Assembly: GCA_012797975.1 (NCBI GenBank)
Contig: JAAZOD010000032.1
Location: forward strand, 1-64,000
Reading direction: 5' to 3'
DNA from: Pelolinea sp.
GTDB lineage: Bacteria > Chloroflexota > Anaerolineae > Anaerolineales > Anaerolineaceae
Length of the DNA: 64,000 nucleotides
Shown here: positions 3,812 to 62,791 of the stretch, in pieces
Numbering within the stretch: the stretch's first letter is position 1
How the letters are laid out: each line of letters opens with the position of its first letter
The notes under the pieces: model-generated
Databases searched by the model: none
Told to the model about the DNA's origin: nothing
The model's input: the letters and a program-made list of their open reading frames with translations, nothing else
Made by a program: the position numbers and the translations under genes

Positions 3812-3875
3812 TGGGTGATTTGACAGAATAGGATGAATTATCTATACTTGCAATGAAATAACCTGTTCAATGGAA

Positions 3876-3964
3876 CAGACCCGGGGAGCCGTACTGCGGC
3901 TGAGAGGAAGAGTTTGATCTTCGACCCGTAAAACCTGATCCGGTTAGTACCGGCGGAGGGAGAA
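3876..3964 (+). ncRNA. TPP (THI-element) riboswitch aptamer
   Basis: All landmark segments of the thiamine-pyrophosphate aptamer are present in order: CGGGGAGCC at 3882-3890, GCTGAGAG at 3899-3906, GACCC near 3923, and the block AACCTGATCCGGTTAGTACC followed by GGCGGAGGGAGA (3952-3963). It precedes a thiN-thiB-thiP-thiQ operon. The 3' end of the aptamer can pair with 3979-3989, which is also the 5' arm of the downstream hairpin, giving a ligand-dependent switch. Confidence 0.95.
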
Positions 3965-3980
3965 TAGAAAAAACCCAATC

Positions 3981-11591: not shown

Positions 11592-11597
11592 TAAAAT
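11592..11597 (+). promoter_or_regulatory. Candidate -10 element of the 19-codon transcription unit
   Basis: TGTAAAATGG has the form of an extended -10 (TG, then TAAAAT, here directly adjacent). It begins 10 bp after the yerB-like stop codon and lies 50 bp before the small ORF. No -35 is recognised, so this could also be read-through from the upstream gene. Confidence 0.35.
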
Positions 11598-11646
11598 GGA
11601 ATAGAAGCATTTTCTTTTCCATAGCTATCCTAAGGAAGAGGAGGTG

Positions 11647-11706
11647 ATGTCCACCATGTGTTCCGTTAAACCCAAAGCTGCGGCATCCCTCCTCACAATC
11701 CTCTAA
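11647..11706 (+). CDS. 19-residue peptide with an extremely strong ribosome binding site
   Basis: The ORF reads MSTMCSVKPKAAASLLTIL and ends in TAA at 11704-11706. It is too short for ordinary gene finders. It is proposed because GAGGAGGTGAT runs into its ATG, with GGAGGTGAT matching the complement of the usual 16S rRNA 3' end; the second ATG at 11656 has a more normal 11-nt spacing and may be the real start (16 residues). The ORF's last third is the 5' arm and loop of a hairpin, and a strong terminator follows. No known leader peptide is recognised and no gene follows on this strand, so it is not an ordinary attenuator. It might encode a small protein, or the SD may be part of an RNA with another role. 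Confidence 0.45.
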   Translation: MSTMCSVKPKAAASLLTIL

Positions 11707-11720
11707 AAGGATGCCGCAGC
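11677..11720 (+). other. 12-bp perfect hairpin overlapping the end of the 19-codon ORF
   Basis: GCTGCGGCATCC (11677-11688) and GGATGCCGCAGC (11709-11720) are perfect inverse complements around a 20-nt loop. The loop edge CCTCCTC (11688-11694) is perfectly complementary to the ribosome binding site GAGGAGG at 11638-11644. The same RNA could therefore form either the hairpin or a closed, SD-blocked structure. Confidence 0.6.
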
Positions 11721-11769
11721 GAACAAATTGAAAGCCGCTCAGTAGCTCTGAGCGGCTTTCAATTTGTTC
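11721..11769. terminator. Perfect 22-bp bidirectional hairpin between convergent units
   Basis: The arm 11721-11742 and the arm 11748-11769 are perfect inverse complements around a 5-nt loop (TAGCT). The inner part AAAGCCGCTCAG / CTGAGCGGCTTT is a typical terminator core. It directly abuts the preceding 12-bp hairpin. It would end the small plus-strand unit and the minus-strand GH5 gene. Confidence 0.8.
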
Positions 11770-11787
11770 TAAACTTTTAGAAATGGA

Positions 11788-13116
11788 TTACCAGGAGACA
11801 GTAGAGGGACGTACGGTATTCAAACTCCAATACGATTTCAACACATTCAGGAGAGGATTACTCAGAAGTATGGTTTTATTGGTTGGATCCGTGCCAAATT
11901 TGTAATTGAAATCATCCACATCCGGGCCGAATGGTTCATAGCTGGTTGACCATTCCCAAATGGCATAATTCCATCCTTCATTCTCGAAAATGGCTAACAG
12001 ATCGTTCAAATAAGCCGCTGCACCGGGCACCCAGCGTTTTATGCCAAATTCGTTGATCACGACAGACACATGATTTCTTTTCTGATATTGCCGTACCGGC
12101 TGCAACAGATTTAAAATATACTGCTGATTGAATTGCTCGATCTCATCGTCCTCATCGATATCAAATTCACCGGGATAGCTGTTCTTCCCGCGAGTCCCCT
12201 GATGGGTATAGGTATCAAACGGCATGTATTGATGGACATCGTAGACAATATTCTCTGCATCCACTGTGGGCAGAGAGGATAGCCATTCCACGCTGCTGTA
12301 ACCATCTGCTCCAATTAGAATGGGGGTTTCCGCATCCACTGCGCGGATAGCGTTGACAATTTTTGGATAGAAAGCTGTCCAGTCGGCCAGCGTGCCGGCA
12401 TAAGAGCGAAAGAATTCTTTGGGCGAATCAATGTCGTATAGGATATCCGCAGCATTTGGTTCCACCATCAGCTCATAACCGACCACTACGGGGTTATCAC
12501 GATAGCGTTCAGCGGTATACTGCCACATTGTCAGCCATGCCGCTTGCGCTTCAGTGTCGCTCCACACGGCATCATTGAAGTAGTTATCATAATAATGCGT
12601 GTCTGAACAACACAAGCTCCATTCCGCTTTTCCGGGGCCGGTACGAAAAGCGATGGTGGCGAACAGATCGGCTTTTGCGATCATTCCCAGCATCAAATCA
12701 AGATTGCGTTGGACCTCTTCATCCACCCGATAGGGAGGGGTTTCTGTGAACAAACCGGGGGCGGAAATGACCACATAATTGGCGCCCAGCGCTGCCAGCA
12801 GATCGAAATCCTGCTGGGTGAACGGCGGACCTACCCTGCCGCTGCCTTTGGAGGTGTCGTCGACCTCCGGAATCACCAGAGACTGCCAGATATTCACACC
12901 GCGCAGCATGGGTGTGCTGCTCTTCCACAAATCGATTTTGTGTTCGATCACTGCGGTGGACCGCACCTCTTCAGTCATTGTCGTAGCTGCTGATGGTGTA
13001 ACAGTCAGGGTTGGCTGAATGGATTCGTCATAGGTGACCAATGCTGGTTTGCCCTGACAGGCGGCTAGAATCATCGCAATGGTAAACAGCACCGGACAAG
13101 CTCTTTTGATTTTCAT
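11788..13116 (-). CDS. GH5-like (cellulase-superfamily) glycoside hydrolase lipoprotein
   Basis: A 442-residue exported lipoprotein (lipobox LAAC, Cys20; then a Thr/Ser/Pro-rich linker). The catalytic domain has the clan GH-A layout: an LRGVNIW strand at 71-77, acid/base Glu219 in GYELMVEPNA (the usual N-E-P reads V-E-P here), and nucleophile Glu356 in VVINEFGIKRW, with a late WEWSTSYEPF strand. The replacement of the Asn before the acid/base is unusual for GH5 but is seen in related GH-A families. The substrate cannot be read; extracellular beta-glucan or beta-mannan type polymers are plausible. The start ATG at 13116 is preferred because it gives a signal peptide and lies 7 bp after a TATAAT, making the mRNA leaderless or nearly so. 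Confidence 0.8.
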   Translation of the reverse strand: MKIKRACPVLFTIAMILAACQGKPALVTYDESIQPTLTVTPSAATTMTEEVRSTAVIEHKIDLWKSSTPMLRGVNIWQSLVIPEVDDTSKGSGRVGPPFTQQDFDLLAALGANYVVISAPGLFTETPPYRVDEEVQRNLDLMLGMIAKADLFATIAFRTGPGKAEWSLCCSDTHYYDNYFNDAVWSDTEAQAAWLTMWQYTAERYRDNPVVVGYELMVEPNAADILYDIDSPKEFFRSYAGTLADWTAFYPKIVNAIRAVDAETPILIGADGYSSVEWLSSLPTVDAENIVYDVHQYMPFDTYTHQGTRGKNSYPGEFDIDEDDEIEQFNQQYILNLLQPVRQYQKRNHVSVVINEFGIKRWVPGAAAYLNDLLAIFENEGWNYAIWEWSTSYEPFGPDVDDFNYKFGTDPTNKTILLSNPLLNVLKSYWSLNTVRPSTVSW

Positions 13117-62672: not shown

Positions 62673-62778
62673 CTCTCATCTTCCAGAACCACCGCAACTG
62701 CGGCTTCTGCCGGAATTGGCACCGAGAATCGGTTGCCGAGGTTTCACAGGGCCGGTCCCTCCACCTCTCTGGATGAGC
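62673..62778 (-). ncRNA. SAM-I (S-box) riboswitch aptamer
   Basis: On the minus strand the S-box consensus reads through in order: CTCATCCAGAGAGGTGGAGGG, then GGCCCTGTGAAACCTCGGCAACC, GGTGCCAATTCCGGC, and the closing GAAGATGAG. P1 pairs CTCATC at the start with GATGAG at the end. Located 11-17 bp downstream of a good promoter and 60 bp before metH. It switches off the methionine operon when SAM is high. Confidence 0.95.
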
Positions 62779-62791
62779 GGAATTGGCAATT

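Follow-up and report, generated by a model that had tools for sequence, protein, structure and literature searches.

A widespread Anaerolineae element that is probably a self-masking micro-mRNA

What does a bacterium gain by giving a reading frame of 16 codons a near-perfect Shine-Dalgarno sequence (SD), and by building into the same short unit two stretches that could cover it? The question is raised by positions 11592-11769 of a 64 000-nucleotide (nt) stretch of Pelolinea sp. DNA (contig JAAZOD010000032.1), the whole of which is referred to here as the window. A preliminary description made from the letters alone had proposed a small secreted or membrane peptide, an RNA that titrates ribosomes or a self-regulated small gene. 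We find that the segment is one copy of a widespread Anaerolineae element, and we consider it probable (roughly 0.6) that this element is a micro-mRNA that stands alone and carries its own translational lock, translation being the regulated event. Comparison of relatives supports a promoter of its own, a kept start, frame and stop, a strong SD, a hairpin that we call P2 and usually a terminator. It also revealed RNA changes that compensate each other as well as a conserved frame, the two outcomes that the preliminary description had expected such a comparison to tell apart.

A DNA search found matches in four of the five genomes of the genus, one of them the window's own, and many more in the family, with E-values down to 5e-19 beyond the genus. 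A covariance model built from 20 copies, with a match threshold of E 0.01 or better, matched 277 of 400 genomes in a sample of the order (165 of 210 high-quality genomes; 112 of 130 genera), and it matched 127 of 298 genomes in a sample of the class that included the order. A second model, built from 71 copies and used for the phylum sample, matched 55 of 400 genomes, ten of them outside the class; model E-values are rough, and the class is Anaerolineae by named records. Nine of these ten weak matches were read (G907 was left out), and seven have the same architecture while two are false (L216 and L217). Among the matches listed, the named records with the element are Anaerolineales, Anaerolineae, Anaerolineaceae, Anaerolinea, Leptolinea, Villigracilaceae, Chloroflexi or Chloroflexota, and no other phylum appears among these labels. 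Genomes usually give one match, and a second can be the P2 palindrome on the opposite strand. One genome (G072, contig C64) holds two copies, L082 and L083, that are identical including the near flanks shown and lie on opposite strands about 104 kb apart, through either recent duplication or an assembly artefact. No constant neighbour gene was seen around the element in 30 loci (five of them without an anchor) or in a further 40 loci with long flanks.

For comparative work, 149 forward-strand rows were reduced to 135 distinct cores and, after removal of two false matches, to 133, with 128 distinct sequences from SD to stop; the core set holds several copies from related species. Reverse-strand model matches, mostly to the P2 palindrome, were dropped (31 of 103, 3 of 47 and 2 of 36 across three sets), as was L091, a second fetch of the genome of L008. 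All features given below for the window lie on its forward strand, and the TAAAAT, the extended SD and the two perfect hairpins proved to be where the preliminary description had placed them. TAAAAT (11592-11597) resembles the −10 box of a promoter belonging to the element, with a weak −35 in this copy. Across relatives, a promoter of the TTGACA/TATAAT (sigma-70-like) type, with a −10 that ends 15-55 nt upstream of the model start, was found in 103 of the 127 copies with enough flank and in 37 of 1826 control spans. The extended SD, GAGGAGGTGATG (11638-11649), has a calculated pairing energy of −20.5 kcal/mol with the tail of 16S ribosomal RNA. The 46 long open reading frames (ORFs) of the window, each allowed the best of six candidate starts, reach −13.3 kcal/mol at best with a median of −8.8, which bears out the earlier remark that this SD is far stronger than its neighbours.

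The frame had been described as one of 19 codons. The frame itself stands, but its start does not: the ATG at 11647 is only 2 nt from GGAGG, while the ATG used by relatives corresponds to 11656, giving an SD spacing of 11 and a micro-ORF of 16 codons, MCSVKPKAAASLLTIL (11656-11706), with its TAA stop (11704-11706) in the loop of P2. Starts in relatives were assigned by a rule blind to frame (the first ATG 7-13 nt past GGAGG, else GTG or TTG). A preset frame test was passed by 129 of 135 cores; the frames of L152, L228 and L218 end beyond the preset window and were counted as having a frame. A frame of 14-22 codons is thus present in 132 of 133 copies. The spacer from SD to start varies (8, 9, 10, 11 or 12 nt), yet under the same frame-blind rule the distance from start to P2, measured on the alignment, is a multiple of three in 70 of 71 cases (21, 24, 27 or 30 nt). 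The sole exception to the frame, L066, has a frameshift ahead of P2 and a distance of 23 nt, and a sequencing error is suspected because its genome is 77% complete.

P2 (11677-11720) has arms at 11677-11688 and 11709-11720 that form 12 perfect base pairs (bp), enclosing the stop codon and part of the internal anti-SD, a stretch within the ORF that is complementary to the SD. Among 70 distinct sequences, two-sided changes were found in 11 of 11 pairs of P2, with 97.1% of cells paired, and the observed structure exceeded 500 of 500 shuffles on each measure as well as all slid versions. Abutting it is a 22-bp perfect hairpin (11721-11769; arms 11721-11742 and 11748-11769); of the 25 inverted-repeat pairs listed out of 27 (distance limit 60), it is the longest perfect one. 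The preliminary description had called it a terminator; the perfect hairpin is there, with a poor T tract behind it in this copy (TCTAAACTTTTAG), and we speak of a presumed terminator. A stem of at least 8 within 65 nt after P2 was found in 121 of 131 relatives, compared with 10.9% in shuffles, and a stem of at least 7 with at least three T in the next 8 nt in 107 of 131. The RNA from 11598 to 11790 folds at −84.7 kcal/mol, against −43.4 (standard deviation 4.2) for 200 shuffles (z −9.7). From its apparent ends, the gene would be about 170 nt long.

The preliminary description had noted that CCTCCTC could pair with the SD. It belongs to the internal anti-SD CATCCCTCCTC (11684-11694), which, as read from the sequence, can form 11 bp with the SD around one bulged U, in a duplex of −20.5 kcal/mol, the same value as for the SD with the 16S tail. 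That tail, GGATCACCTCCTTT, was found in 30 of 30 16S ends read from 19 relatives. The window's own 16S end was not located: neither TGGATCACCTCCTT nor GTCGTAACAAGGTA was found in its assembly, for which reason the 16S gene is probably absent from it. An altered tail in the order, considered because GGYTGGATCACCTCC was found in just 4 of 16 genomes, was rejected on the strength of the standard tail in all 30 ends; the pattern was too strict upstream, where the order has GCCTGG. In many copies from other orders the 5′ side of P2 leads into GCATCACCTCC, matching the 16S tail, and the SD complements it. The stretch in the window's order has one base fewer and reads CATCCCTCCTC, and in many copies the SD is extended to GAGGAGG.

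The SD and the internal anti-SD have, on this comparison, co-changed in Anaerolineae. Pairing between their flanks exceeded 5000 of 5000 shuffles (58 distinct pairs), the signal coming from the first two flank positions, where 22 and 0 of 3000 shuffles reach the observed value. When SDs and anti-SDs were swapped among copies, no swap in 5000 was as good as the own pairing, either within the order (99 sequences) or in the rest of the class (26 sequences); clades were assigned by locus origin, with named records carrying the order's pattern counted with the order, their taxonomy unchecked. Purine:pyrimidine covariation between the two gave a Fisher p of 1e-5 for the 116 of 132 sequences that could be scored, kinship being ignored. 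The internal anti-SD pairs at −20.8 kcal/mol with its own SD and at −15.8 with a generic perfect SD, and this better fit speaks against a trap for SDs in general; the strong SD might itself titrate ribosomes. Together with the kept start, frame and stop, the co-change supports the earlier suggestion of a self-regulated small gene.

A second stretch able to cover the SD lies upstream. GCTATCC (11624-11630; consensus GCYAUCY) pairs with GGAGGTG around one bulged A, and in 70 distinct sequences 98.4% of the cells of this helix are paired. We modelled the order of masking by partition-function equilibrium folding of truncated RNAs from 132 copies. In the early nascent RNA the SD is predicted to be held in the upstream hairpin (mean 0.83); once the stop codon has been made it is predicted to be paired downstream (mean 0.93); and when P2 is complete it is predicted to be back in the upstream hairpin (mean 0.78). 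Codon-shuffled ORFs gave a second-stage masking of 0.25, and the observed value was higher in 131 of 132 copies. With the upstream sequence shuffled, early masking was 0.60, and the observed value was higher in 111 of 132.

These predictions suggest how the proposed micro-mRNA could work. The SD would first be held by the upstream motif; with RNA polymerase at the stop codon it would pair with the internal anti-SD; and once the 3′ arm of P2 had been made, P2 would compete for the anti-SD and the SD would return to the upstream motif. If the SD is masked at each stage, the 30S ribosomal subunit would have to win the site by pairing its tail with the SD, at nearly equal strength. During translation the ribosome would open P2 and cover the anti-SD. 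The closest mechanism to the one modelled here is that of aapA3, a type I toxin mRNA of the AapA/IsoA kind, in which an upstream anti-SD and then an ORF-internal anti-SD mask the SD during transcription, and the final structure masks it afterwards (PMC6733600). The element would work in a similar way, without the hydrophobic peptide of type I toxins. It differs in that its SD is predicted to end up with the upstream motif again, where aapA3 has a long-distance 5′-3′ pairing.

Several points weigh against a lock of this kind. Flank positions 3 and 4 of the SD and anti-SD are at chance level (316 and 1749 of 3000 shuffles reach the observed value). In the seven copies from outside the class the swap test is reversed, the own pairing being weaker and 5000 of 5000 swaps as strong, and because of this reversal the cis fit holds for Anaerolineae but is not shown beyond the class. 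Related sequences inflate the shuffle tests. The upstream helix has two-sided changes in none of seven pairs and one-sided changes alone, and in the folding model the shuffled upstream sequence by itself already masks the SD at 0.60. The folded stretch leaves out most of the 5′ leader and the terminator. With the upstream motif removed, the complete RNA still pairs the SD downstream at 0.49, from which it follows that P2 alone would free the SD just in part. Nor does the proposal account for a cell's keeping such a lock on a frame of 16 codons.

The codons ahead of P2 give no sign of selection on the peptide. Nearest-neighbour changes there comprised 8 synonymous and 67 nonsynonymous ones, a synonymous share of 0.11 where 0.20 was expected (9 and 84 under other settings), while the shares in the wrong-frame controls were 0.16 (expected 0.27) and 0.22 (expected 0.23). 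Third codon positions ahead of P2 are as conserved as first positions. Neither codon test, the first of them run on 109 copies chosen for having the frame, showed amino-acid-level selection in the codons ahead of P2; within P2, peptide and RNA constraints are inseparable. The idea of a small secreted or membrane peptide found no support, given this result and the character of the peptides: the mean grand average of hydropathy (GRAVY) of 132 peptides is 0.16 (range −1.95 to 1.51), and the longest run without charged or strongly polar residues has a median of 8 and a maximum of 18. As separate observations on the ORF, 108 of the 109 copies examined have a stop in the +2 frame, and in many relatives, though not in the window, codons 2-4 conserve GATAGTAGT with T at wobble positions, possibly as a single-stranded RNA motif or a low-structure start.

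Start, frame and stop have been preserved, yet no selection is visible on the amino acids ahead of P2; from this we infer that what matters is the act of translation rather than the peptide. The most likely use of the proposed lock would be to read translation-initiation capacity, in the form of free 30S, and to set the state or lifetime of the element RNA, the last step being conjecture. In its fullest form this would make the element a core Chloroflexota RNA that senses free 30S. Such an RNA would present a near-perfect SD together with a decoy akin to the 16S tail; competition between that decoy and the ribosome's tail would decide on translation of the micro-ORF, and translation, not the peptide, would set the fate of the RNA and report translation capacity to the cell. 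We put this forward tentatively, as a possibility with the odds against it.

Among the alternatives, a conserved micropeptide, of consensus about MDSSxKPSAVASLL, that acts on a cellular target and whose synthesis the RNA structure merely tunes, would account for the preservation of start, stop and frame in 132 of 133 copies and for the phase of start and P2 in 70 of 71. Most of the 70 frames listed read S-A-(A/V)-A-S in the core, and the third codon positions within P2 (columns 75 and 78) belong to the most variable ones. However, that core sits in P2, where pairing constrains it; column 77, a second codon position (Ala/Val), is just as variable as the third positions; and the difference between SPP and SLL tracks the one-base shift in the anti-SD. 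The low synonymous share ahead of P2 and the conservation of third positions there speak against it too, as does the lack of any Pfam match at E 1 for the four peptides searched. We regard this explanation as doubtful.

Dual-function small RNAs such as RNAIII, SgrS and SR1 are free-standing and structured, with their own promoter and terminator, a short ORF and a C-rich stretch near a loop. To judge by sequence, the element shares with them an independent promoter and terminator around a conserved small ORF, and like them it forms a free-standing unit; it differs in having the C-rich stretch within the ORF, matched to its own SD. Could it act in trans, its C-rich stretch blocking the SDs of other mRNAs, with the ORF secondary? 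In favour, CCUCC sits at the loop of a stable hairpin, within it or adjoining it, the unit has a promoter and a terminator of its own, and many copies from outside the order carry a stretch identical to the 16S tail. Yet it fits its own SD better than a generic one and tracks its own SD flank in Anaerolineae, and a role in trans would leave the conservation of the frame unexplained. We therefore think it unlikely.

The resemblance to aapA3 raises the further prospect that the element is, or once was, a type I toxin mRNA; we judge this very improbable. With such mRNAs (aapA3, hok/Sok, AapA/IsoA) the element shares the predicted masking of the SD by an upstream and an ORF-internal anti-SD, stage by stage as in the AapA3 model (PMC6733600). 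In addition, 11 of 127 copies share a promoter-like site on the minus strand at the upstream motif (for example L017, L086 and L201; TTGACA or TAGACA type, 16-17 nt, TAGGAT type), which reads away from the ORF and would give an antisense RNA to the leader. That site is, though, made of letters already fixed by the upstream motif and the SD region, and a sequence scan found any promoter-like minus-strand site in just 13 of 127 copies, giving no general sign of an antisense antitoxin gene. The peptides are short and weakly hydrophobic, unlike the hydrophobic toxins of type I systems, and the element occurs at about one copy per genome across the class.

Translational riboswitch expression platforms set access to the SD through three competing segments: SD, anti-SD and anti-anti-SD. 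The element likewise has three competing segments, but its anti-SD is placed after the SD, within the ORF, and neither an aptamer nor a constant downstream gene was found at it. A leader-peptide attenuator for a downstream gene is as improbable as a toxin, for although one gene family lies downstream on the same strand in 6 of 40 long-flank loci (L054, L058, L059, L068, L070 and L073), downstream genes otherwise differ, the next long ORF in the window is convergent, and a terminator-type hairpin follows most copies. The label AIR-synthase/HypE-like for that family is a reading of the letters alone.

Two other identities were rejected. A repeat or mobile element does not fit the window's genome, which has one copy, the second match being the 22-bp palindrome on the other strand. 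Nor is the element a known RNA family, as it reaches no Rfam 15 gathering score in the window or in 20 relatives. Below the cut-off lie Leu_leader (RF00512), at 26 bits against a gathering cut-off of 50 bits, and hairpin matches of a chance type, mostly to microRNA families. Chloroflexi-1 RNA (RF01698), a structured RNA from the same phylum, comes from a study of 104 motifs (PMC2864571); the element in the window and the 20 relatives score below the gathering threshold for it, as for every Rfam family. We found no description of the element in the literature searched, most subscription papers lying outside its reach. The window's sole gathering-level Rfam matches are a TPP riboswitch (3872-3978, forward strand, 66.1 bits) and a SAM riboswitch (62673-62779, reverse strand, 82.1 bits).

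Most genomes sampled from the order carry the element, at about one copy each, and it is found across the class, without a gathering-level match in Rfam 15. On the reading we favour, that of a micro-mRNA with a translational lock, a frame of 14-22 codons, with no visible selection on its amino acids ahead of P2, is joined to an RNA lock made from the 16S tail sequence, copied exactly or in variant form. This would offer a clean test case for whether, in bacteria, translation of a short ORF is conserved as an act in itself, and if the lock does read free 30S, the element would sense translation capacity directly, as RNA.
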